From assembly GCA_017303575.1 (NCBI GenBank), contig JAFLCL010000002.1:54758-118757 (forward strand): 64,000 nucleotides of DNA, in the 5' to 3' direction. The notes below the pieces were generated by a model. The model did not search any database and had not been told where the DNA came from. It saw only the letters and a list, made by a program, of their open reading frames with translations. The DNA is from Deltaproteobacteria bacterium (GTDB taxonomy: Bacteria > Myxococcota_A > Polyangia > Polyangiales > Sandaracinaceae). Shown piece by piece: positions 41,343 through 56,001 of this stretch. Numbering within the stretch: the first letter of the stretch is position 1; every line of letters begins with the position of its first letter. The position numbers and the translations under genes are program-made.

Positions 41343-42548
41343 TTAACTGGCCACCGCTACGGTCGACGTGGCCCTGTCGGACGCGGGCGCGAATGCCCGA
41401 GCGAGTGCGACGCGGGCGAGCAGGTCGAGTTCCTCCCGCGCGGTGCCTGCGCGCGCGAGCGCTGTAGCGAGAGTGTCCCTCAGCTTCTTGAGGTAGGCCA
41501 CGACCGCGATCTGCTCCTCCCGTGACGGGACAGGGACCGGGAACGCCAGAAGCTTGTCGGTCTCGAGCTTCCGCGTGTCGTGCGTCGACTTCGCAACCAG
41601 CGCCAGCAGGCCCCGGTTCCGAGCGCGCAAGGCGAACAGAAGGTACTCGGCGTCGATCTCCGTCGCGTGCAGCGCCTTCATGTCCTGGTTGATGGCTGCG
41701 TCGACCGTGAGCCGACCAACCGGCACCGTCCGCACAAGGATCATGCCGCGCGTAACGATCAGGATCGCGCCTGCCCTCACGACCTTTGCAGCAGACTCCT
41801 GCGTGGCTGTCGCCGAGATGTGGTCCTCGGAGTCATCGATCTCCCAGCGCTTCATGTCTTTCGGCGAGACCCACGGAACGTTCCCTGCCCAGTACGTCGG
41901 GTTCGCCTTCGATGGCGTGCCACCCCCCTGCACTCGGACCAGCTCGCCGAGCGGACGAGTAACGGCAATCCGAGCCAGTCGGTCCTCAGCCGCGCGTTCC
42001 CACGCAGCCGCAAGCGCGACGTCGGACAGGTTCCGAAGTCGCGAGGCCTCTCGGACCTTGCTCTCGAGCGCTTCAAGCCGAGCCACGACCCGGCGCTGTT
42101 CGTGCAGCGGCGGCAGCGGCACTTCGATATCCAGGAACGCCTTCTTCGAGAGAGTGCGGTTCCTGCCAGCCCCTCCGGGCGACACGCGTAGTAGCGCGTC
42201 GAGCCCCTCTTTCGTGCGGAAGTAGTGGAGCAAGAACCGGCTGTCGAGTCGCGCGGAGTCCGCTCGAAATGTCGGGAAGCGATGCGAGCCGATCATGCCT
42301 TTCTCGGCGTCGCTGACGATTCCGACGGCTCCCTCCCACGCGAACACGATGTTCAGGACGAAGTCGCCAGGCTCCACCCAGAAGACCTTCTTGTCACCGA
42401 GGGCGGCGCCGGACACGGGCTCCTTGTGGAAGAGCCCACGCCCGTGGGAGCGGATGCCGATCTCCCGATACTCAGCAGCACCGTCCACATCAATCGGTCG
42501 AGGGAGGTGCTTCAACACGTCGCCAATGCGCGCACGGGACCAGCTCAT
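41343..42548 (-). CDS. hsdS: Type I restriction-modification specificity subunit HsdS
   Basis: The 401-residue protein has two target-recognition halves, each ending in a conserved helix: PLPPLHEQRRVVARLEALES (first spacer) and VPVPSREEQIAVVAYLKKLR (second), with GGGTPSKANPTYWAGNVPWV at the start of the second target-recognition domain. It gives DNA sequence specificity to the HsdR2M2S complex. Its ATG overlaps the hsdM stop (ATGA). The chromosomal side of attR carries this operon, so it belongs to the host or an older island, not to the prophage. Confidence 0.93.
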   Translation of the reverse strand: MSWSRARIGDVLKHLPRPIDVDGAAEYREIGIRSHGRGLFHKEPVSGAALGDKKVFWVEPGDFVLNIVFAWEGAVGIVSDAEKGMIGSHRFPTFRADSARLDSRFLLHYFRTKEGLDALLRVSPGGAGRNRTLSKKAFLDIEVPLPPLHEQRRVVARLEALESKVREASRLRNLSDVALAAAWERAAEDRLARIAVTRPLGELVRVQGGGTPSKANPTYWAGNVPWVSPKDMKRWEIDDSEDHISATATQESAAKVVRAGAILIVTRGMILVRTVPVGRLTVDAAINQDMKALHATEIDAEYLLFALRARNRGLLALVAKSTHDTRKLETDKLLAFPVPVPSREEQIAVVAYLKKLRDTLATALARAGTAREELDLLARVALARAFAPASDRATSTVAVAS

Positions 42549-44113
42549 CTCACGCCCTCGGCGGCAAGCTGCTTCTGTACGTCCTCGAGAATCGCGATCA
42601 GAGCGCGTTCTGCGCTGAGTGCGCGCTGCACGAGTTCGGCCGCGGGCAGACGCTCGAGGTCGTCTGCGGCGTTCGGGTTTGCCAAGTCGAGATTCGAGCC
42701 CTTCGCGAGCACGCCCTCTGCCGATACCCTCCACGCTTGCGGCCCTTCGACGCGCTTGCTCCACCAGTCTTTGAGCGGAGTGAACTCCTCGAACTGGATC
42801 GGTGCTGTCTTCGTGTACTTCTTCCGGCCCTCCGGCAGCGGGTGCTCGTAGAACCAGATGTCACCGGTTGGGCCGGTGCGATCGAAGAAGAGGAGGTTCG
42901 TAGGGATCGGCGTATACGGCTCGAAGACGCCGTTCGGCAGGCGCACGACGGTGTGGAGGTTGAACTCCCGGAGCAGCTCCTCCTTGATGCGAGCCGCAAT
43001 GCCGTCGCCGAAGAGGACGCCGTTCGGCACGACGACCGCCGCGCGTCCCGGCTTCGGCGCGCGCCGAAGCTTGCGCATGATGAGCTGGAGGAAGAGCAGC
43101 GCGGTCTCGGCGGTCTGCTTGTCCTCGGGGAAGTTCGAGAGAATGCCTCGCTCCTCCTCGCCGCCGAACGGCGGGTTCGTGAGGATGACGTCGACGCGGT
43201 CCTTGTCGCCGATCTCGCGCAGAGCCACGGCGAGGCTGTTACCCGGCTCGATCCGTGGCGTCTCGAGGCCATGGAGCAGGAGGTTCATCTGCGCGAGCAA
43301 GTACGGCAGCGGCTTGGCTTCGCCCCCGAGGATCGTTCCTTCCTGGAGCTTGCGGCGCTGCTGCACCGTCTTGCACTGCTTCTCCATGTGCGAGTACGTC
43401 TCGACGAGGAAGCCGCCGGTGCCGCACGCCGGGTCGAGCACCGTCTCGCCGATCTTCGGGTCGACGACGTCGACCATGAGGCGAACCACTGCGCGAGGCG
43501 TATAGAACTCACCGGAGTCGCCCGCTGCGTCACGCATCTCCTTGAGCATCGACTCGTAGAATGTGCCCAGCGTGTGAATCTCGTCGGACGAGGTGAAGTG
43601 GATGCCGTTCACCTTGTTGATGACGTCGCGCAGCAGGTAGCCGTTGATCATCCGGTTGACCGTGCCCTTGAACACGGTTGCGATGACGTCACGCCGGTCG
43701 CCGCCCTCTGCGCCTCGCAGGGCTCGCAGGTAGGCGAAGAGTCCGGCCCCCTTGGATCCGTCAGGCCTCCGGCACTCCTCCTGGTTGATGAACGCGATCA
43801 GCTCGTCGCCGGTGATGCCGTCGTCCTTCGCTGCCCAGTCACGCCAGCGGTAGGGAGGCTCGATCGCCGGCTTGAACTTCTTGCCGGAGAGCTTCGCTTC
43901 CTCCTCGCGCATGGATTCCATGTCGTCGAGGAACTTCAAGAACATGATCCACGTGAGAACGGGGATGCGATCGACGTCGCCGCTCAGTCCCTTGTCCTTC
44001 CGCATGATGTCGCGTGAGGATTTGAGGATCGTGCCGAGTCGCTGAGCAGTGGTGGCTGCGGCGCTTCCGTTGGCGCCGTTGCCGTTCGTCGTCTTCGCTT
44101 TGTTCTTGGCCAT
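42545..44113 (-). CDS. hsdM: Type I DNA methyltransferase subunit HsdM
   Basis: The 522-residue protein has the HsdM N-terminal helical domain (LKSSRDIMRKDKGLSGDVDR, LTWIMFLKFLDDMESMREEE), the GEFYTPRAVVRLMV segment, SAM motif DPACGTGGFLVETYSH and the N6-adenine catalytic motif LTNPPFGG. It methylates host DNA with HsdS. Its start lies 24 bp after the hsdR stop. Sequence and length are typical. Confidence 0.95.
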   Translation of the reverse strand: MAKNKAKTTNGNGANGSAAATTAQRLGTILKSSRDIMRKDKGLSGDVDRIPVLTWIMFLKFLDDMESMREEEAKLSGKKFKPAIEPPYRWRDWAAKDDGITGDELIAFINQEECRRPDGSKGAGLFAYLRALRGAEGGDRRDVIATVFKGTVNRMINGYLLRDVINKVNGIHFTSSDEIHTLGTFYESMLKEMRDAAGDSGEFYTPRAVVRLMVDVVDPKIGETVLDPACGTGGFLVETYSHMEKQCKTVQQRRKLQEGTILGGEAKPLPYLLAQMNLLLHGLETPRIEPGNSLAVALREIGDKDRVDVILTNPPFGGEEERGILSNFPEDKQTAETALLFLQLIMRKLRRAPKPGRAAVVVPNGVLFGDGIAARIKEELLREFNLHTVVRLPNGVFEPYTPIPTNLLFFDRTGPTGDIWFYEHPLPEGRKKYTKTAPIQFEEFTPLKDWWSKRVEGPQAWRVSAEGVLAKGSNLDLANPNAADDLERLPAAELVQRALSAERALIAILEDVQKQLAAEGVR

Positions 44114-44137
44114 CAGGTCGTTTCTCGCGCGAGGCCA

Positions 44138-46510
44138 TTAGGCCGCATAAAGGATGGTCTGCAACTCATGGATCGCCTCGCGGAGCTTCTCTGCACCGCC
44201 GAAGTGCTTGGCGATCTCGATGACGTTGCCGTGATCGGAGATCGGCGGCACCTGCAGCACGTCCGGAAGAACGAACTGCGCGGTGCCATGCTCGGCATAC
44301 TTCTCGAGCAGCTCTTCGAGGATCTGGCGAGCCAGCCCCGAGTGCTTCTCGAGAAACTCGCTTCGGTCCTTCCGAACGCGGTCGGCTCGCTCACGCCGCG
44401 TCCGTAGCGGAGCGCTGTACGCGACATGACAGAGCAGGTCGAACGGATCGGCGTCAGGCTGCGACGTCACCTTCGTGAGTTCGTCGAAGTCGATGCCGCG
44501 CTCCGCGAGGCGTTCGATGATGTCCGCTCGCTTCTCCGGGTCGGCCCACGCTTCGCGCAGCTCGGCGGCCGTCGGGAACAGCGTCCTCACGCGCTCGGCC
44601 GTGTAGTCAGTGAACTGCACGACGCGGAGCTGACGCCCCTCGGGATCGAGCTCGTAGACGAGGTGCGCGGCGACCTGTACCTGTCCGCCGTCGAAGTAGA
44701 ACTTCCGAGGCTCGCCGCCCTCTTCGTCGTCGGGGGTGACCACGCCGTAGGGCGGACCAGGCGGCTCCGACACCTTCAGAGGCTCTGGCTCTTTGACCTT
44801 GTAGGTCTCCGGCTTGCGCTTGCCCTCGTCGTCGATCTGCTCCTCGCTCACGCGGGCTGGATCGCCATCGAAGTCGGGGTCGGCGAACAGCGTCGTGGCC
44901 GAACCCGTGTAGTCGAGGATGTTGAAGAAGAGCTTTCCGTAGTCGTCGCGCACCCGCGTTCCGCGCCCGATGATCTGCTTGAACTCGCTCATCGAGCCGA
45001 CCACGCGAACAAGAACCACGTTCTTCACGGTGGGGGCGTCGACGCCTGTCGTCAGTAACTGCGACGTCGTCAGAATCACCGGGGTGCGCGTTTCCAGCTC
45101 CTGGAAGCGGCTGAGATGGCCGCGTCCGACATCGCCTTCGTCAGCGGTGACGCGGCAGACGTAGTCCGGGTGCTGCTGGACGATGTCGGCGTTCAGATTC
45201 GAGAGCATCCGCCGCATCTCGTCGGCGTGCTCCTGATCGACGCAGAAGACGATGGTCTTGCCGAAGCGATCGGTGTTCTTCAGGAACTCAGTCAAGTGGC
45301 TCGCGATGGCGGCGGTTCTCGCGCGGAGGGCGACGACGCGCTCGAAGTCCTTCGTTGTGTACTCGCGGTCCGGGATCTCTCGTCCCATGCGGTCGGTATC
45401 GCCGGCGTTCGGCCGCCACCCCGCCGCATCAAACGTCGTGATGACGCGATGCACGCGATAGGGAGCGAGGAAGCCGTCTTCGATGCCCTGCTTGAGGCTG
45501 TACTGGTAGATGGGGTCGCCGAAGTACGAGTACGTGTCGCGGTTGTCCTCGCGGAGCGGCGTCGCGGTCATGCCGAGCTGGTACGCCGGCTCGAAGTATT
45601 CGAGGATCTCGCGCCAGCTGCTCTCATCGCGCGAGCTGCCACGATGGCACTCGTCGACGACGATCAAGTCGAAGAAGTCCTTCGCGTACTCCTTGTAGAG
45701 TCCGGGGCGTCGTTCATCTGCGGCGAGCGCTTGGTAGATCGAGAAGTACATCTCGCGGCTCTTCACCGCGTTGCCACCCTCGATCTTCGCGCGTGCGTCA
45801 CCGAACGGCGCGAACATCTTGGCGTAGGGGTCATCGACCAGGATGTTTCGGTCGGCGAGGAACAGGATGCGCGGCTTGCGATGGTCCCCCGTGCGGTTCC
45901 AGCGCGCCGACCACAGCTTCCAGCAGATCTGGAACGCGACGAACGTCTTGCCCGTCCCCGTCGCCATCGTGAGAAGCAGCCGACGCTGTCCCTGCACGAT
46001 CGCCTGCACGGCCCGGTTGATCGCGATCTCTTGGTAGTACCTCGGCGCCTTGCCGAGGACGTTGAAACCCGGGGTGAGGAGGCGCTCGGCCGCTTCGTCG
46101 CTGAGGTGCGCGTCGCCGCGCAGGCGAGCCCAGAGGTCGCTCGGCGCGGGGAACTCCTGCAGCTCGCGCTCGAGCCCGGTCAGGAAGTCGAACTCGACGA
46201 CGCCGTGTCCGTTGGTCGCGTACGCGAACTTCAGCCCGAGCACCGTCGCGTAGTCCTTCGCCTGCTGAAGGCCATCGCCGGGCGACTTGTACGCCGCCTT
46301 CGCCTCGACGACGCCGATCGGGAAGTCGCGCGTGTAGCGGAGCAGGTAGTCGGCGCGCTTCTGCGGCTGACGACGCGCCTTGCTTCCGACGACGATGATG
46401 CGGCCGTCGGTGAAGGACTTCTGCTCGGTGAGCGAGTGCGGCTCGTTCTCCCAGCCAGCCGCCTGCAGCTTCGGCACGACGTACTTGCGACAGGTGTCCG
46501 CTTCGTTCAT
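44138..46510 (-). CDS. hsdR: Type I restriction endonuclease subunit HsdR
   Basis: The 790-residue protein has an N-terminal PD-(D/E)xK nuclease domain (PIGVVEAKAAYKSPGDGLQQ, E-x-K at about 69-71), and a superfamily 2 translocase: Walker A MATGTGKTFVAF (about 181-192), DECH box LIVVDECHRGSS, QLGMTATP and the QIIGRGTRVRDDYGK motif VI. A C-terminal domain of the EcoEI/R124 type contacts HsdM. The start is the ATG at 46510, overlapping the HTH gene's stop, so all four genes are one operon. Confidence 0.95.
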   Translation of the reverse strand: MNEADTCRKYVVPKLQAAGWENEPHSLTEQKSFTDGRIIVVGSKARRQPQKRADYLLRYTRDFPIGVVEAKAAYKSPGDGLQQAKDYATVLGLKFAYATNGHGVVEFDFLTGLERELQEFPAPSDLWARLRGDAHLSDEAAERLLTPGFNVLGKAPRYYQEIAINRAVQAIVQGQRRLLLTMATGTGKTFVAFQICWKLWSARWNRTGDHRKPRILFLADRNILVDDPYAKMFAPFGDARAKIEGGNAVKSREMYFSIYQALAADERRPGLYKEYAKDFFDLIVVDECHRGSSRDESSWREILEYFEPAYQLGMTATPLREDNRDTYSYFGDPIYQYSLKQGIEDGFLAPYRVHRVITTFDAAGWRPNAGDTDRMGREIPDREYTTKDFERVVALRARTAAIASHLTEFLKNTDRFGKTIVFCVDQEHADEMRRMLSNLNADIVQQHPDYVCRVTADEGDVGRGHLSRFQELETRTPVILTTSQLLTTGVDAPTVKNVVLVRVVGSMSEFKQIIGRGTRVRDDYGKLFFNILDYTGSATTLFADPDFDGDPARVSEEQIDDEGKRKPETYKVKEPEPLKVSEPPGPPYGVVTPDDEEGGEPRKFYFDGGQVQVAAHLVYELDPEGRQLRVVQFTDYTAERVRTLFPTAAELREAWADPEKRADIIERLAERGIDFDELTKVTSQPDADPFDLLCHVAYSAPLRTRRERADRVRKDRSEFLEKHSGLARQILEELLEKYAEHGTAQFVLPDVLQVPPISDHGNVIEIAKHFGGAEKLREAIHELQTILYAA

Positions 46511-46743
46511 CGGCGCCCCCCCTTCTTCGCCGGGCTCGTCGCCTTCGACGCGGCCTCCTCTGGTCCCGCTGCTCCGGCGACCTGCGCGGCCATCCACGTG
46601 TCGAGGTCCTGCCGGCGGAAACGCCACTGCCCCCGCACCTTGAAGCAGGGCAGCTCGGCCTTCTGGGCCATCGTGTAGACGGTCTTCTCGGCCACCTTGA
46701 GAAGCAGAGCGACCTCGGCGACTGTCAGAATTTCGTCGGCCAT
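46507..46743 (-). CDS. Excisionase-type helix-turn-helix protein at head of hsd operon
   Basis: The 78-residue protein has ILTVAEVALLLKVAEKTVYT followed by CFKVRGQWRFRRQDLDTWMA: the MerR/Xis-type HTH_17 fold with a wing that ends in W-R-F-R. A basic Ala/Lys tail follows. Such small HTH proteins commonly lead type I restriction operons and probably control expression so that methylation precedes restriction. GAAGGA lies 9 bp before the ATG at 46743. Divergent promoters with the SIS-HAD operon would share the 120-bp gap. Confidence 0.85.
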   Translation of the reverse strand: MADEILTVAEVALLLKVAEKTVYTMAQKAELPCFKVRGQWRFRRQDLDTWMAAQVAGAAGPEEAASKATSPAKKGGRR

Positions 46744-46864: not shown

Positions 46865-46984
46865 GTGCACGCGACTTCGAAGGCGAGCCTCAAGCCCATG
46901 CACCGACCGCTCGCGGAGCGCGTCCGCGGGTTCGCGTTCGGGCTGACCAGCGCGCAGCAAAGCGCCGGAGGCCGTCGTGGGTAA
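46865..46984 (+). CDS. Possible 39-codon leader ORF before SIS-HAD gene
   Basis: A GTG at 46865, with GAAGGA 5 bp upstream, opens a 39-codon frame (HATSKASLKPMHRPLAERVR) ending in TAA at 46982-46984. The stop overlaps the start region of the SIS-HAD gene (GTG at 46977), so translation could be coupled. The peptide is basic and unlike known families. It may be a leader peptide, or the true start of the operon may differ. Confidence 0.35.
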   Translation: MHATSKASLKPMHRPLAERVRGFAFGLTSAQQSAGGRRG

Positions 46985-48839
46985 GGCGTTCGCGAGCGAG
47001 CTGGCTGCCCTGGGGGACACGCTCACCTGGGCGCTGTCCCGCGACGTGACGGCGCTCGAGCGGTTTGTCGCGGACGTCGCGGATTTGCCGCTGGTTGCGA
47101 TCGGGTCCGGTGGTTCGTCGACGGCCTGCCACCTGACGACGCTTCTTCACCGTACCCGCCATCGACGACCGGCTCTCTTCACGACGCCGCTCGACGTGTT
47201 GTCGGTGCCGGCGGGTCTTCACCGCGCCGCCGTGTTCCTCGCTTCGGCGTCCGGCAAGAACAAGGACGTCCTCGCGGCGCTCCAAACGTCCATCGCCGAC
47301 GAGGCGCCCGCCGTCGCGGTGGTAACCCTGCGCGCCGAGAACCCGTTGAGCGAGGCGGCCGCATCGTATCCGCGAGCCCGCGTGTTCGCCGCCGACGCCC
47401 CCGCTGGCAAGGACGGCTACCTCGCGACCAACAGCCTCGTCGCCACCTGTGCGCTCGTCGCGCGGGCCTACGGCTTCGGCGTCTCGCTCTCGAAGGCTCC
47501 GCGCAAGGCGGTCGATGGAGCCATCTTCGAGGATCGTCACATGGTGCAGGTCCTCCATGGTGGCTGGGGCTCACCGGTCGCCACCGACCTCGAGTCGAAG
47601 ATCAACGAGTCGGCCCTCGCTGCCGCGCAGCTCGCGGACTACCGGAACTTCGGGCACGGGAGGCATCTGTGGCTCGCGAAGCGAGCCGCCGAAACCGTAG
47701 TCGTCGCACTCGTTACGCCGGGGACCGCGGCCATCGCGGATTCGACCTTGAAGCTCTTTCCGAAGAGCATCCGGGTCGTTCGCCTCGAGACCTCTCTTGA
47801 TGGGCCTGATGGTACGATCGACCTCCTCATCCAGGCGTTTCATCTCGTCGACCGCATCGGCGTGACACGCAAGCAGGATCCCGGTCGGCCGCATGTGCCG
47901 GAGTTCGGCCGCAAGCTGTACCGACTCACGCCGCCGCGCGTTCGGCCGACCCTCGATGCACCAATCCAGCGAAAGCTCTGGGCGTCGCCCGGGGCCACGG
48001 ACGAGGGCAAGGCCTTCCAGCAGGGCCTCAAGCGGTTCCTCGCCCGCGCGCGCACCGCCAAGGTCAGCGCGGTGGCCCTCGACTACGACGGCACGCTTTG
48101 CACGAAAGACGATCGGTTCGGCGGACTTCGGGACGACGTCGTCGCCGAGTGCTCGCGCCTGCTCAAGGCCGGACTCCACCTCGGAATCGCAACCGGCCGA
48201 GGGAAGTCCGTGCGCGAGGAACTTCAGAAGGTGCTCGATCGCAAGCTCTGGGCCCGCGTCCACATCGGCTACTACAACGGAACGGCCATCGGCGCTCTCG
48301 GCGACGACGCTTTGCCGAAGACGGACGAACCGAGCGACCCCGCGTTGAAGCGCGCGCAGTCGCTCTTGTCGGACGACGCCTGGTTGGCGGCAACAGCCAA
48401 GATCACGCCGCGGCCGCAGCAACTTACCGTCGAGCCCAAGGGCGCCACGAGGACCGACGCGCTCGCGGCCCACGTGATGTCGCGCCTCGCACCGCTCGAT
48501 GGGGCGGGCGTGCGCATCGTTGTCTCATCGCACTCGCTCGACGTGCTGGGCGCTCGACCTGGCAAGGGCTCGCTGGTTTCCTGGTTGCGTGAGCAGGTCG
48601 GCGAAGCTCGCGAGGTGCTGTGCATCGGTGACCGAGGCGCATGGCCCGGCAACGACTACGCGCTGCTCGCCGAGCCCATGTCGCTGAGCGTTGACGAGGT
48701 CTCGAGCTTGGACGACACGTGCTGGAATCTCGCGCCGCGCGGCGTCTCCGGTCCAGATGCAACGTTGCTCTACCTCCGCGCGATCAAGGCTCGCGGGGGT
48801 GTTGGAACCTTCACGTGGAAGGAGGGCTCGGCGCGATGA
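46977..48839 (+). CDS. SIS-domain and HAD-phosphatase fusion protein
   Basis: The 620-residue two-domain protein has an N-terminal sugar-isomerase (SIS) domain: VAIGSGGSSTACHLTTLLHR (about 40-59), VFLASASGKNKDVLAAL (about 86-102) and a second half around residues 190-320. The SIS fold binds phosphosugars. The C-terminal domain (from about 360) is a HAD phosphatase: DYDGT with nucleophile Asp at about 369, LHLGIATGRGKSVREEL (motif II Thr/Ser), and LCIGDRGAWPGNDYALLAEP (motif IV), of the Cof/trehalose-phosphatase-like class. The fusion would isomerise and dephosphorylate a sugar phosphate. GTG start with GGAGG. First gene of the five-gene operon. Confidence 0.85.
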   Translation: MGKAFASELAALGDTLTWALSRDVTALERFVADVADLPLVAIGSGGSSTACHLTTLLHRTRHRRPALFTTPLDVLSVPAGLHRAAVFLASASGKNKDVLAALQTSIADEAPAVAVVTLRAENPLSEAAASYPRARVFAADAPAGKDGYLATNSLVATCALVARAYGFGVSLSKAPRKAVDGAIFEDRHMVQVLHGGWGSPVATDLESKINESALAAAQLADYRNFGHGRHLWLAKRAAETVVVALVTPGTAAIADSTLKLFPKSIRVVRLETSLDGPDGTIDLLIQAFHLVDRIGVTRKQDPGRPHVPEFGRKLYRLTPPRVRPTLDAPIQRKLWASPGATDEGKAFQQGLKRFLARARTAKVSAVALDYDGTLCTKDDRFGGLRDDVVAECSRLLKAGLHLGIATGRGKSVREELQKVLDRKLWARVHIGYYNGTAIGALGDDALPKTDEPSDPALKRAQSLLSDDAWLAATAKITPRPQQLTVEPKGATRTDALAAHVMSRLAPLDGAGVRIVVSSHSLDVLGARPGKGSLVSWLREQVGEAREVLCIGDRGAWPGNDYALLAEPMSLSVDEVSSLDDTCWNLAPRGVSGPDATLLYLRAIKARGGVGTFTWKEGSAR

Positions 48840-49915
48840 GAGACGCACTCGCCGAACGCCTGCTCGCCAACGTCATGGCGTGGACGCCCGAGGACGTCGC
48901 TCGAGAGAGGCCCGTGCTCCAGGCACTCGCCGCCCTCAAGTACGACGAGTACCAACAGTTCAGCCCCGGCATGCGCTTCGTGGAGAGCCTCGCGCTGTGG
49001 CTCGAGCAGTTCGCGTCGATGGATGAGCGCAATGCCGCGTATGCGTTCGTCCTGAGTCGGCTCGTCTTCTTGTCGCACGCCGAGATGGCTCACTTTTCGG
49101 CTATCGCGTACCCAGATGTGATCCGACCTCTGTTCATCGAGCAAGCTGCGAAGGATGCGAAGCTTCCTCCGTTCCGCGTCAGCCAGGTCCTTGGCACCGA
49201 GGCTTTCAAACGGCTCGAGGGATCGAGTCTGTTCTTCGGGCTCAGCGACGGTGCACGGGTCGACCTCTTCCGGCGCAGCAACAAGGAACTGAGCCACGAG
49301 CAGATCTTCACCGGCTATGAGGTCTCCGACGAGAAGGTGAACGAGATCCGCGCGTGGCTCGAGAAGCGCGGCCACAACGAGGCCGCGCCGGCGCTCATCC
49401 TGCTGGATGACTTCTCCGCGAGTGGCACGAGCTGCCTGATGGCAGACGGCGACAAGGCGAAGGGAAAGGTCTCCAAGTTCATCGAGAGGATCCAATCCAG
49501 CGATGCATGGAAGTCCGTGGTCTCCTTCCCTAAGACCCGGCTCGTCATCGTCCTGTACGTCGCCACGGAGCAAGCGCTGGCCAACATCCACGCGGGCGCC
49601 GAGATCGTCAGGAATAAGCACGGCATCGAAGCCACCGTGCTGTGCGTGCAGCGGATCGCCGGGGACCTCTCGCTCAAGGCGTCCGACGACGGCTCGATGA
49701 TCGACGTGATCAAGAAGTACTACGACGCTTCTGTCGAAGACGAACACACCAAGAAGGGTGGCTCCGACTTGAGGTTCGGCTTCGCCGCCGGAGGTCTGCC
49801 TCTCGTCCTTCACCACAACACGCCCAACAACTCGATCTTCCTGCTCTGGGTCGAAGACAGCGAATCCGTCAGGCCCTTGTTCCCCCGAGTGAGTCGCCAC
49901 CGGAGGGAAGCATGA
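48836..49915 (+). CDS. Phosphoribosyltransferase-like protein (PRTase-CE type)
   Basis: The 359-residue protein carries a PRPP-binding-like signature LILLDDFSASGTSCLMADGD at about residues 187-206 (DD-x-x-x-S/T-G-x-T/S), as in type I phosphoribosyltransferases, embedded in a long helical protein. I recall a family called PRTase-CE, placed in computationally predicted conflict systems, that matches this build; I could not check it here. It would transfer phosphoribose, or sense PRPP/nucleotides. Its ATG overlaps the SIS-HAD stop as ATGA; its TGA overlaps the next start. Confidence 0.72.
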   Translation: MRDALAERLLANVMAWTPEDVARERPVLQALAALKYDEYQQFSPGMRFVESLALWLEQFASMDERNAAYAFVLSRLVFLSHAEMAHFSAIAYPDVIRPLFIEQAAKDAKLPPFRVSQVLGTEAFKRLEGSSLFFGLSDGARVDLFRRSNKELSHEQIFTGYEVSDEKVNEIRAWLEKRGHNEAAPALILLDDFSASGTSCLMADGDKAKGKVSKFIERIQSSDAWKSVVSFPKTRLVIVLYVATEQALANIHAGAEIVRNKHGIEATVLCVQRIAGDLSLKASDDGSMIDVIKKYYDASVEDEHTKKGGSDLRFGFAAGGLPLVLHHNTPNNSIFLLWVEDSESVRPLFPRVSRHRREA

Positions 49916-51831
49916 AGGACGTGCGCAACCCCTTCCGGCTGCAGACTGCCGAGAGCATCGACTCAGACGCCGACTTCCTGCGCCTGTTCGGATATGGCGT
50001 GCTTGACCTACTCCCCGAGGACGCACTGACGGGACGCCCTCTGTTCATTCGAAGCGCGCCCGGTGGCGGCAAGACGTCGCTCCTCAAGCTCTTCACGCCC
50101 TCGGTCTTGCAACACCTCGTGGCGATGAAGGGCAACGACGCGGTCAAGGAACTCTTCGGCAAGCTGAAGGGGTTGGGCGCCGTGTCGGACCACGACGTCA
50201 ACGTGCTCTCGGTGATGCTGCCCTGCGGACGGACGTTTCCCGCCCTGGCCGATGTGGAACTGAAGCCCGCGCGCGCCAAGCGCCTCCTCCTCGCGCTGAT
50301 CGATGCCCGCGTCATCCTCGGTGCGCTTCGCGCGATCCTTATCGCCCGAGGTCTTCGCTTCCCCGACGACCTCTCGCGTCTGACACTCGTCGCGCCACCC
50401 GAGGATCACGTTCCGGGCCTGTCGTTTCCCTGCGACGGTGTTGCCGTCCAGCGGTGGGCCGAGACCATCGAGCAAGGCGTCGCCGACCTCATCGACACCC
50501 TCATGTCACCAGAAGGAGCCGGCCCCCCGGGGCACGACGCGCTGCTCTCACTACGGCTGCTCGATGCCAACTGCATCCAGCTCGACGGAAAGCCGTTCGA
50601 GACGCGATGGCTTATCACCTTCGACGACATGCAGAAGCTCGCGCCGACGCAGCGAGCGGCGTTGCTCGAAGTCGTCGTCGACCAACGCGCGCGATCGACG
50701 GTCTGGTTGGCCGAACGGTTCGAGGCGCTCTCCACCGACGAGTTGCTGGCATCCGGCGCACTGAGCGGTCGTGACCACCTCGTGATCAACCTCGAGCGCG
50801 AGTGGAAGAAGGGACGCTTCGAACCTGCGGTCAAGCTCATCGCGGAACGGCGTGCCCGCATGGCGGCCGAGTCGGCGGGCGCCAACGCGCCGGATGCATT
50901 CGCCCCCACCATCGAGGCCGATCTTGATGCGCCGGCGTGGCAGGAGAAGACGCAGGCTGCGCTTGATGTCGTTCGGAAGCGCGTCGAGATCCTTGCAGCC
51001 AGCAAGGCTCAGTACGCCGACTGGGTGAAGTCGCGCGCGGACGTTGAGGGCACGCTTCGCCACCAGCTCATCAAGTGGCGCACGCTTGAGATCTTGATCG
51101 CGCGGCAACAGGGCAAGAAGCAGATGAACCTCCTGCTCGAGCCGCTGAGCACGGAGGAACTTGACGACAAGGACGAGTCCGACGTTCGCGCTGCGGCCGA
51201 ACTGTTCCTGAGCAAAGAGTTCGGCTTCCCCTACTACTTCGGCCTGAGCAAGCTCGCGAGCCTCGGCTCCTTCAACGTGGAGCAGTTCATTCGGCTCGCT
51301 GGCGACCTCTTCGAGGAATCCCTGGCGGCGGCCGTGATGAGGCGCAGTCCGCGACTCGCTCCCGAGCGGCAGCAGCGCATTCTCGAAGGCGCATATGACA
51401 CGCGCGTCAAGGATCTGCCGCGCCGCGCGAAGAATGGTCGAGACGTGCTGCGCTTCCTGGACGCCGTTGGTCAGTTCTGTCGCGACGTGACGCACCAACC
51501 CAACGCTCCGTACTCACCCGGCGTCACGGGCATCGCGATCCTCATGCAGGAGCGAGAGACGCTTCTCGACGCGGCGCACCTCGCGAAGAGCCCACCGACT
51601 GCCGCGTTCGCGTCGATGCTCGGAACGGCAATCGCTCACAACCTCCTGCACGCGGAGGTGGACTACAAGGTCAAGGGCAACCGCTACATGGTGCTCTACC
51701 TCAATCGTCTCCTCTGTCCGAAGTATGAGCTGCCGCTGCAGTTCGGCGGCTTCCGCGAGAAGCCGCTCCGCGAGTTCATCACGTGGGCGGAAAAGGGCTA
51801 CCGGCCCTCGAAGTCGGAGACCCTGCTATGA
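49912..51831 (+). CDS. P-loop ATPase of the five-gene operon
   Basis: The 639-residue protein has Walker A FIRSAPGGGKTSLLKLF (about residues 45-61) and a Walker B-like hhhhDD in RWLITFDDMQKL (about 232-243), a layout like ORC/STAND-type or other AAA+ NTPases. It has a long helical C-terminal region rich in charged residues, with no helicase or nuclease motifs visible. In conflict systems such ATPases act as sensors or switches that license an enzymatic partner. Overlaps of 4 nt with both neighbours imply equimolar synthesis. Confidence 0.8.
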   Translation: MKDVRNPFRLQTAESIDSDADFLRLFGYGVLDLLPEDALTGRPLFIRSAPGGGKTSLLKLFTPSVLQHLVAMKGNDAVKELFGKLKGLGAVSDHDVNVLSVMLPCGRTFPALADVELKPARAKRLLLALIDARVILGALRAILIARGLRFPDDLSRLTLVAPPEDHVPGLSFPCDGVAVQRWAETIEQGVADLIDTLMSPEGAGPPGHDALLSLRLLDANCIQLDGKPFETRWLITFDDMQKLAPTQRAALLEVVVDQRARSTVWLAERFEALSTDELLASGALSGRDHLVINLEREWKKGRFEPAVKLIAERRARMAAESAGANAPDAFAPTIEADLDAPAWQEKTQAALDVVRKRVEILAASKAQYADWVKSRADVEGTLRHQLIKWRTLEILIARQQGKKQMNLLLEPLSTEELDDKDESDVRAAAELFLSKEFGFPYYFGLSKLASLGSFNVEQFIRLAGDLFEESLAAAVMRRSPRLAPERQQRILEGAYDTRVKDLPRRAKNGRDVLRFLDAVGQFCRDVTHQPNAPYSPGVTGIAILMQERETLLDAAHLAKSPPTAAFASMLGTAIAHNLLHAEVDYKVKGNRYMVLYLNRLLCPKYELPLQFGGFREKPLREFITWAEKGYRPSKSETLL

Positions 51832-52961
51832 CCCCTGATTCGCTTCGCTGGCGCGACTACTTTCTTCGCGATGGCGACGGGTTCGACGAGTTCTGGAAGG
51901 CCTTCTTGGCCGAGCGGAAGCGGAACGTGCTCTTCGTGCTCGGACATGGATTCGATGCGCGCATGTGCGACGGCATCGAACGGGTGCTCAGCCTCGGTGG
52001 AGAGGGCACGCGCGACGTCGCGCTGATTGCGTTCGATGAGGGCGCGGAGTCGCCGTCGCAGATCTACGTGGCCCAGCGCACGGCGAATGGCGAGCGACTC
52101 GAGAAGCTGGTTCAGGGACGCGGCACGATCGGGCACAGGGACATCAAGATGTTCTCCGATGACAATCGCAGAATCGGCGCTCGTAGCATCGCCCAGGAGT
52201 TCGCGTCGTCGGCCGAGTTTCGCTCCTATACGGACGTCGTCGTGGACATCAGCGCGTTGCCTCGGAGCCTCTACATGCCGCTCTTGGCGAAGCTCCTTGC
52301 GCTGTTCGACGGTGAAGCGAAGGACGGCGAGAAGCGCAATCTGCACGTCATCGTCTCGCACTCTCCCGCGATCGATGGTGCCATCGTCGAGGAGGGGCTT
52401 GAGGAGAGCGCGAGTTACCTCTTCGGGTTTGCGGCAGCCGCCCTGGAGAGCGAGTCGACCAGCGGCCAGCCGAAGATCTGGATCCCCGTCTTGGGGAAGC
52501 GCCAGCCGGCGCAGTTGGAGCGGATCAACCAGTTCGTCATGCCAGACGAGATCTGTCCGCTGCTCCCCTCGCCAGCGCGAGACCCCCGCGAGGGAGACTC
52601 CATCATGATTGAGTACCGTGAGTTGCTCTTCGACCAGCTCCGTGTGGAGCCGCGCAACATAATCTACGCCGCCGAGTCCAACCCCTTCGAGGTGTACCGC
52701 CAGCTCATGCGGTCCATCCTGCACTACGACCGCGCGCTCAAGCCACTGGGTGGCTGCAAGGTCGCGCTGTCTGCAATGTCGTCGAAGCTGGCATCGATGG
52801 GCGTGCTGCTCGCGGCGTACGAGCTAGGTCGACGAGATCCGAAGGTGACCGTGGGCGTTGCCCACGTCGAGTCGCAAGGGTACCGCGTCGAGTCGAATGG
52901 CACCGCCCCGTCGACGACGCTGTTCACGATGTGGCTCTCTGGAGAATGCTATGCCGCGTGA
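51828..52961 (+). CDS. Unrecognised protein, possible Rossmannoid sensor, of the operon
   Basis: The 377-residue protein shows alternating strands and helices: RNVLFVLGHGFDARMCDGIE (about 32-51), DVALIAFDEGAESPS, DVVVDISALPRSLYMPLLAK (about 142-161), NLHVIVSHSPAIDGAIVEEG, then a second set ending SKLASMGVLLAAYELGRRDP and VTVGVAHVESQGYRVES. The strand-D-I-S/T-x-x-P/K-x turn recalls CARF/SAVED-like or other ligand-binding Rossmannoid folds, but this is my inference; I do not recognise the family. ATGA overlap with the ATPase gene; 11-nt overlap with the kinase gene. Confidence 0.65.
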   Translation: MTPDSLRWRDYFLRDGDGFDEFWKAFLAERKRNVLFVLGHGFDARMCDGIERVLSLGGEGTRDVALIAFDEGAESPSQIYVAQRTANGERLEKLVQGRGTIGHRDIKMFSDDNRRIGARSIAQEFASSAEFRSYTDVVVDISALPRSLYMPLLAKLLALFDGEAKDGEKRNLHVIVSHSPAIDGAIVEEGLEESASYLFGFAAAALESESTSGQPKIWIPVLGKRQPAQLERINQFVMPDEICPLLPSPARDPREGDSIMIEYRELLFDQLRVEPRNIIYAAESNPFEVYRQLMRSILHYDRALKPLGGCKVALSAMSSKLASMGVLLAAYELGRRDPKVTVGVAHVESQGYRVESNGTAPSTTLFTMWLSGECYAA

Positions 52962-54024
52962 GGCCCATCAGCACAGTTGTGTAGGAACCGGATTCATCGT
53001 CCTCGACGTGATTCGAAATTCGGTGGGGACCAGCGCGACCGAGAAGCGCTTTGCAGGCGGATCCTGCGGGAACGTCCTGACCATCCTGGCGTACTTCGGG
53101 TGGGACGCGAACGCGGTCGGTCGTATTGGCGACGATCACGCCGGCCGCGAGCTTGTGGCCGATCTCGGTAAGTGGGGCGTCGAGACCAAGCTTCTGCAGG
53201 TGGAGGCTGGTCGAGGAACGCCCATCATCGTCCAGGAGAACTACTTGGATGCCAGGGGACGCCCTCGCCACCGCTTCTCGCGAGCGTGTCCCGTTTGCGG
53301 CGCGACGCTCCCGGCTTACCGACCGCTGCTGACCACCGAGGCGGCGACGATCGCCGCGAAGCTGCCCGCTCACTCGGTGTTCTACTTCGATCGCGTGGCG
53401 CCCGGTACACTCGAGATCGCACAGAAGAGCCGCGCGAACGGTGCGCTCGTCGTGTTCGAGCCGTCGGGAATCAAGGACGAACGGCTCTTCGCAGGATGCC
53501 TGAGCGCCGCTCACGTCGTGAAGTACGCGAACGACCGGATCGAAGGTGTTCACGACGTGGTGGCGAAGGCGAAGGTCCCGATCGAGATCGAGACGCTGGG
53601 TGCCAAGGGACTCCGGCTCCGTGTCCGCACCAATGGGCGCGTGGGTGCATGGAAAGACCTTCCCGCCTTCTCTGCGCCGGAGCTGCGCGACGCGGCCGGA
53701 AGCGGCGACTGGACCACCGCCGGACTGATCCACGGCTTGATGACCAACGGCGGCTCTGTCGAGAAGGTGGTGGCCGATGCGAACGCCGTGGTTCTCGCGA
53801 CTCGTAAAGGGCAGGCCTTGGCGGCTCTCAACTGCGGCTTCGAGGGCGCGCGGGGCCTGATGTACGCGACCGACGCGAAGCGTGTTCTCGACCTCGTAGG
53901 GGCGATCGTCGAGGGAACGAAGGAGCCGAGTGTAGCCGCCCTTCAGTCAAACAAGCGCTCCAAAGGACGCGCCGACGACAAGACGTGCCTCACCTGCTCG
54001 GGCGCTCGAGCACTTCACCCGTAG
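52951..54024 (+). CDS. PfkB-family sugar/nucleoside kinase with two CxxC pairs
   Basis: The 357-residue protein has the ribokinase-family signatures: an N-terminal substrate-binding GG turn (EKRFAGGSCGNVLTILAYFG, about 31-50), VGRIGDDHAGRELVADL, and the anion-hole/catalytic motif DAAGSGDWTTAGLIHGL with the base Asp at about 253 (GAGD appears as GSGD). Unusually, it carries CPVCG at about 113-117 in the lid region and CLTC near residue 346, which could form a zinc site. It would phosphorylate a sugar or nucleoside supplied to or by its operon partners. Its 3' end overlaps the convergent gene 53990. Confidence 0.82.
   Translation: MPREAHQHSCVGTGFIVLDVIRNSVGTSATEKRFAGGSCGNVLTILAYFGWDANAVGRIGDDHAGRELVADLGKWGVETKLLQVEAGRGTPIIVQENYLDARGRPRHRFSRACPVCGATLPAYRPLLTTEAATIAAKLPAHSVFYFDRVAPGTLEIAQKSRANGALVVFEPSGIKDERLFAGCLSAAHVVKYANDRIEGVHDVVAKAKVPIEIETLGAKGLRLRVRTNGRVGAWKDLPAFSAPELRDAAGSGDWTTAGLIHGLMTNGGSVEKVVADANAVVLATRKGQALAALNCGFEGARGLMYATDAKRVLDLVGAIVEGTKEPSVAALQSNKRSKGRADDKTCLTCSGARALHP

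Positions 54025-54456: not shown

Positions 54457-54460
<4 letters not shown>
53990..54460 (-). CDS. ParB/KorB-type HTH protein downstream of serine recombinase
   Basis: The 156-residue protein has a Pro-rich N-terminus and an HTH region: KVARMLALAHHLQGAIDRGL and DRAAVARKLGLTRARVTQLLDLLMLAPDLQ, as in ParB/RepB-like DNA-binding proteins. Genes of this type frequently follow large serine recombinases in this kind of cassette. Its ATG overlaps the recombinase stop (ATGA). The last 35 bp overlap, tail to tail, with the PfkB kinase gene, placing the edge of the recombinase element at or near here. Confidence 0.72.

Positions 54461-55997
<1,537 letters not shown>

Positions 55998-56001
<4 letters not shown>

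Follow-up and report, generated by a model that had tools for sequence, protein, structure and literature searches.

A recurrent five-gene cassette joins a CARF protein, a phosphoribosyltransferase and an ATPase to two sugar-phosphate enzymes in diverse bacteria

RESULTS

Five overlapping genes at one locus

In this study we analysed a stretch of 64,000 nucleotides from a bacterium of the family Sandaracinaceae (assembly GCA_017303575.1, contig JAFLCL010000002.1, positions 54,758 to 118,757), hereafter called the window, and focused on a cassette of five genes at positions 46977-54024 that a sequence-only reading had described as an operon. The five open reading frames (ORFs) lie on the plus strand in one direction, are all open in translation and overlap by 4, 4, 4 and 11 nucleotides (nt). 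The first gene (46977..48839, +) has a GTG start and encodes a fusion protein of 620 amino acids (aa), in which a SIS domain of the phosphosugar-isomerase type is followed by a HAD-IIB phosphatase-type domain; a GGAGG noted by eye at 46967-46971 lies 5 nt upstream of its first GTG. The following genes encode a phosphoribosyltransferase (PRTase)-fold protein of the PRTase-CE family (48836..49915, +, 359 aa), an ORC-CDC6-like ATPase (49912..51831, +, 639 aa), a stand-alone CARF protein of the CARF6 family in which no effector domain was found (51828..52961, +, 377 aa) and a sugar kinase of the PfkB/ribokinase family (52951..54024, +, 357 aa). Translations and family matches agree with the sequence-only reading on five overlapping genes with HAD, phosphoribosyl pyrophosphate (PRPP)-loop, Walker A and PfkB motifs, and the family assignments likewise fit its description of enzymes of nucleotide and sugar-phosphate chemistry.

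Recurrence of the five-gene unit

Related loci were collected through a CARF alignment, which biases the sample towards CARF, and genes were called with five family profiles built in this analysis. The resulting 91 loci comprise the best 80 of 135 in named genomes, one viral contig, nine plasmid loci and the window. All five genes are present in 81 of them, a co-occurrence that exceeds chance; the sequence-only reading had named a lack of co-occurrence elsewhere as its refutation, and the five genes do co-occur elsewhere. Eight of the ten incomplete loci reach a contig end on the side of the missing gene (L024, L025, L033, L068, L073, L076, L084 and L095). The other two, L081 and L085, are real exceptions and likely remnants: L081 holds a lone CARF fragment, and L085 a split CARF gene and PfkB in a Nitrosopumilus bin. 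The archaeal bins L033 and L085 carry a partial gene set only. The order SIS-HAD, PRTase, ATPase, CARF, PfkB is found in 59 of the 81 complete loci, with a median gap of -4 nt at each of the four junctions (starts picked by profile), and 15 of the 22 others begin with SIS-HAD and PfkB.

The cassette occurs in many bacteria that are not related to one another, both on chromosomes and on plasmids, including 17 of 72,556 plasmid records. According to the record titles, which we mapped to phyla ourselves and among which contaminated bins are possible, the loci belong to Pseudomonadota, Myxococcota, Desulfobacterota, Bacteroidota, Chloroflexota, Armatimonadota, Planctomycetota, Verrucomicrobiota, Acidobacteriota, Nitrospirota, Cyanobacteriota, Bacillota and Actinomycetota. 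We also queried two genome samples with the CARF, SIS-HAD and PRTase profiles (E 1e-15; 1e-40 for SIS-HAD). Searched separately, the three profiles hit the same three of 377 genomes of the window's phylum, less than about 6 kb apart on one contig, and the same three of 249 genomes of the order of genome G417, within 6-7.3 kb. At these E-values none of the three genes was seen on its own in either sample. The sample centres, G417 and the window genome, were positive by choice, which leaves two free positives per sample, and the coordinates in one genome (G159) suggest possible identity with the contig of locus L017. These observations support the five genes as one functional unit. A phage-borne origin was rejected, the CARF protein being unmatched in 50,697 phage records (E 1e-5), with a single locus in IMG/VR.

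Family assignments and invariant residues

Residue conservation was counted with one sequence per locus, excluding those cut by contig ends or with less than 85% profile cover, so that 77 of 80 SIS-HAD, 80 of 84 PRTase, 83 of 86 ATPase, 88 of 91 CARF and 85 of 86 PfkB sequences were kept.

The PRTase-fold protein contains the PRPP loop DDFSASGTS, in which D191 and D192 are invariant (80/80), and matches PRTase-CE (PF24390) at 1.5e-18, with 68 bits against a Pfam cut-off of 27. Its predicted model has fold matches to PRTases of small bases, and its profile found only one orotate PRTase among solved structures, at 0.35. PADLOC names the family PRTase_III-A. A prediction reportedly made by Nicastro in 2023 is that PRTase-CE proteins degrade nucleotides as effectors. 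The ATPase carries the Walker A motif APGGGKT and matches ORC-CDC6-like (PF24389) at 1.3e-18, with 67.5 bits against a cut-off of 27; K54 of Walker A and D238 of the presumed Walker B are invariant (83/83). Its best profile match among solved structures reached only 0.033, and it had no match in PADLOC.

The protein encoded at 51828, an unknown Rossmannoid protein in the sequence-only reading, instead belongs to CARF6 (PADLOC PDLC01910 and PDLC01916; PDLC01910 at 1e-111 over residues 7-376, the whole length), which makes it a putative signal receptor and supplies a piece missing from that reading. Its predicted model shows a CARF Rossmannoid fold, with Can1 as the best match and the nuclease part absent; the CARF6 family is labelled in PADLOC as having three CARF domains, whereas the model looks like two Rossmannoid units. 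G41, D43, D140, S142, W218, D257 and E283 are invariant (88/88). At E 1 the CARF profile matched no solved structure. The CARF protein is predicted to bind a nucleotide-like ligand.

In the SIS-HAD protein the HAD half contains the motif DYDGT and is nearest to type IIB (TIGR01484, 2.3e-9; Pfam Hydrolase_3, 0.0012; both under cut-off), as against 0.12 for HAD-IIIA; in two plasmid relatives this half exceeds the Pfam cut-off. The SIS half of the window protein had no Pfam call, and searched alone against the Protein Data Bank (PDB) with phmmer it gave a single chance match at 0.059. With a profile of 45 relatives, however, matches at 2.2e-6 were obtained to two SIS structures, 3hba and 8eol, the latter named glucosamine-6-phosphate deaminase; this bears out the earlier description of SIS and HAD in one protein. 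E211 and H227 align with an E and an H of these two structures, presumably corresponding to catalytic residues of GlmS. Both are invariant in the 77 complete sequences, as are D369, D371, K530, D552, N559 and D560 of the HAD half. One SIS-HAD match, that of locus L108 in G417, is reported with a single internal TGA.

The kinase carries the PfkB motif GSGD, matches PF00294 at 4.2e-13 and has the fructokinase 5ey7 as its best profile match (2.2e-19); D19, G36, G37, N41, G250, G252 and D253 are invariant (85/85). The window protein also has two cysteine pairs, CPVCG and CLTC, perhaps a zinc site, the four cysteines being kept in 61, 48, 47 and 47 of the 85 sequences. Neither SIS-HAD nor PfkB of the window matched PADLOC. 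Judged by their invariant key residues all five proteins look active, and family searches recognised no nuclease, protease or membrane effector domain in any of them.

Two co-evolving modules

Correlation of the protein identity matrices across 75 complete loci divides the cassette in two. Correlations among PRTase, ATPase and CARF are 0.94-0.97 and that between SIS-HAD and PfkB is 0.935, while those between the two groups are 0.60-0.69; all exceed 999 of 999 permutations. Within the 58 loci of canonical order the values are 0.92-0.96 within and 0.74-0.79 between modules, or 0.85-0.93 and 0.45-0.53 for pairs below 60% identity. The split thus holds in the canonical order although SIS-HAD is the first and PfkB the last gene there. 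The 15 loci of other order show no module split, with all correlations at 0.95-0.996. On two plasmids, pRt1078 of R. tumorigenes (L007) and pRRI128_5 of S. meliloti (L117), two diverged triads of PRTase, ATPase and CARF accompany one SIS-HAD-PfkB pair; the ATPases of the two triads are 24% identical.

We infer that the triad forms a physical complex. Because of the two-module correlations and the two triads sharing one pair, we read the sugar-phosphate pair as tied to the triad through a small molecule. The sequence-only reading had proposed one complex or pathway; as one functional unit this proposal stands, but not as a single pathway, as the identity distances show two modules.

A locus from Armatimonadota (L018) compares unevenly with the window, with ATPase 97%, CARF 91%, PRTase 77% and PfkB 58% identical, which suggests recombination inside the cassette.

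Cyclases in host genomes and flanking genes

CARF proteins are known to read signals made by the cyclases of CRISPR type III systems. We searched the genomes of 50 of the 80 named-genome loci, mostly drafts, for Cas10 and for SMODS, the latter being one model of cGAS/DncV-like nucleotidyltransferases (CD-NTases). Cas10 exceeded its cut-off in seven genomes (five strongly) and SMODS in 13, with a union of 17, so that neither was found over cut-off in 33 of the 50. The Cas10 model is if anything too generous, since an Escherichia coli control exceeds its cut-off too. The window genome, a draft of 93.7% completeness, reached 23 bits for Cas10 against a cut-off of 27 and had no SMODS match. Given the 33 genomes with neither, the CARF ligand is probably not an oligonucleotide of CRISPR or of cyclic oligonucleotide-based antiphage signalling (CBASS) in many hosts. 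A simple scan found a CRISPR-like repeat pattern at one of the 91 loci (L092).

Genes of NADAR, a family of enzymes that undo the ADP-ribosylation of guanine, occur in 12 of the 91 loci (e.g. L009:4928-5416), in ten of these between the SIS-HAD-PfkB pair and the triad; none was found in the other 79, the window included. A small helix-turn-helix gene was matched in 11 of the 91 loci, and the largest cluster of flanking proteins covers nine of 90. A length limit first excluded six longer flanking proteins, and of the 155 then listed the set held 145; the ten omitted are two NADAR proteins, four near-duplicate rows of L042/L083 and one each of L009, L063, L095 and L096. Among the 145 the commonest Pfam family is phage integrase (seven). 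Matches in PADLOC, counted without a control set, were to SoFic (seven, some weak), GajB (one), HEC-01A (one), AbiEii (two), PD-T7-1 (two), PD-T7-5 (two) and MADS components (two to three). A patatin-like phospholipase adjoins the cassette in four of the 91 loci (L007:10374-11999, with a weak GAF match, L087, L089 and L093).

DISCUSSION

We tentatively propose, with a probability of about 0.38, that the cassette is a CARF-gated abortive-infection system in which a phage-infected cell is shut down by the destruction of its nucleotides. In this model an infection signal that resembles a nucleotide would be bound by the CARF protein, upon which the ORC/CDC6-like ATPase would activate the PRTase; the PRTase, as the likely effector, would break down nucleotides or deplete PRPP. 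Since the equilibria of PRTases lie on the side of nucleotide formation, a nucleotide-breaking PRTase needs its sugar product removed; SIS-HAD and PfkB might use up the freed sugar phosphate and in this way block the back-reaction. A metabolite common to both modules also fits pRt1078 and pRRI128_5, on which a single SIS-HAD-PfkB pair accompanies two triads that have diverged from each other. A DprA-PRTase pair is described in PMC9122126 as protective against T7 and lambda, and the same paper calls PRTases the probable effectors of retrons. These systems (DprA-PRTase being shosTA-like) resemble the proposed arrangement of the cassette in placing a PRTase as effector downstream of a sensor, but the cassette has neither DprA nor reverse transcriptase, and at E 1 the window PRTase matched none of the DprA-PRTase or retron models of PADLOC.

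It might instead be possible that the cassette makes its own second messenger, which we regard as somewhat unlikely. SIS-HAD and PfkB would then provide an unusual phosphosugar that the PRTase converts or joins to a nucleotide-like molecule, the CARF protein would read this molecule and the ATPase would act as effector. A CARF protein needs a ligand, and most host genomes searched hold neither cyclase over cut-off; in addition, the key residues of SIS, PfkB and HAD are invariant, and one SIS-HAD-PfkB pair can supply two triads. PMC7824862 and PMC5512222 propose that the Ter stress and defence system makes a nucleoside-like signal via PRTases and HAD enzymes. The cassette shares PRTases and HAD phosphoesterases with Ter but differs in its SIS domain and in having CARF as a receptor, and no Ter family of Pfam matched the five genes; for the 145 flanking proteins the families considered were the top 25 of 136. 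Speaking against a messenger made by the cassette, no obvious killing activity would be left, the PRTase would be a synthase, contrary to the PRTase effectors described in PMC9122126, and the SIS-HAD-PfkB pair co-evolves with CARF less closely than the PRTase does. We hold it doubtful that the cassette is an immune signalling system complete in itself, independent of Cas10 and CD-NTases, in which SIS-HAD, PfkB and PRTase build a new sugar-phosphate-derived nucleotide messenger read by CARF. If true, this messenger would be the first CARF ligand other than oligoadenylate.

We consider it improbable that the five genes are a mobile metabolic or tolerance cassette, giving for example protection from a toxin of the nucleoside or sugar-phosphate kind, in which CARF senses a metabolite and phages play no part. 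Three of the five genes are related to metabolic enzymes, but CARF6 and PRTase_III-A are both listed in the defence library PADLOC, and no flanking family recurs widely, as the cluster, NADAR and helix-turn-helix counts above indicate. The PADLOC entries also support a link to conflict systems, in which the sequence-only reading had placed PRTases of this type.

Quite improbable, too, is that the PRTase phosphoribosylates a macromolecule (an RNA or DNA base, or a protein) and that NADAR, SIS-HAD and PfkB reverse this modification or recycle it. This idea draws on the presence of NADAR in 11 of the 16 loci where adjacent SIS-HAD and PfkB genes precede a triad, yet most loci lack a detected NADAR gene and the PRTase model resembles PRTases of small bases. 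Very improbable, and rejected as the general case on cyclase counts and the repeat scan, is an accessory of CRISPR type III or CBASS whose CARF protein responds to cyclic oligonucleotides from another source: the name PRTase_III-A and the genomes with Cas10 or SMODS speak for it, but 43 of the 50 genomes lack Cas10 and 37 lack SMODS over cut-off, although drafts or other cyclase families may hide some.

The ADP-heptose pathway employs GmhA (SIS), HldE (PfkB kinase) and GmhB (HAD, of type IIIA). The cassette has the same three enzyme superfamilies, which in that pathway act on one phosphosugar; its HAD domain, however, is nearest to type IIB, its PfkB protein is nearest to fructokinases, and no nucleotidyltransferase domain was found in the five proteins. 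On these grounds the ADP-heptose pathway as such was rejected.

CARF6, PRTase_III-A, PRTase-CE and ORC-CDC6-like are families already known, and parts of the cassette have been flagged before. PRTase-CE and ORC-CDC6-like proteins are found in conflict systems with other partners, whereas in the cassette their partners are CARF, SIS-HAD and PfkB. In our literature search neither the five-gene set nor SIS-HAD and PfkB as partners of the triad were found to be described, which we do not claim as absence from print. A PRTase is named as part of a system in a figure legend of PMC13092281. In our two genome samples, in which three genes were queried, CARF occurs each time with PRTase and SIS-HAD, and the cassette's hosts are often without the cyclases mentioned above. 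If the cassette is a defence system, central sugar-phosphate and PRPP metabolism would be joined to immunity and the range of ligands sensed by CARF proteins would become directly testable, with the invariant key residues in each of the five genes as targets for mutation. Overall, the interpretation of the sequence-only reading is partly supported.

Surroundings of the cassette in the window

Scans for promoters and terminators found no sigma-70-like site, and terminators at no more than chance level. An RNA component of the cassette was rejected, since Rfam gathering scores gave only a distant tRNA in the window.

The genes for type I restriction HsdS, HsdM and HsdR (41343..46513, -) lie outside the conserved unit. 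The sequence-only reading had placed the operon beside these genes, divergent from them, and took this as support for defence. A small helix-turn-helix gene (HTH_17, 46507..46743, -; PF12728, 1.2e-16), likewise outside the conserved unit, lies divergent from the operon and between it and HsdR. The HsdR ORF as first listed is over-long and overlaps this gene; its true start is probably at about 46513. The adjacency carries little weight, because an HsdR-like match was found in only four of the 91 loci, namely the window, L016, L019 (a fragment only) and L029, of which L016 and L019 are from Myxococcota. Directly downstream of the operon and convergent with it lies a gene for a large serine recombinase (54457..56001, -; PF00239 at 2.3e-41, PF07508, PF13408), which is a sign of a mobile element.

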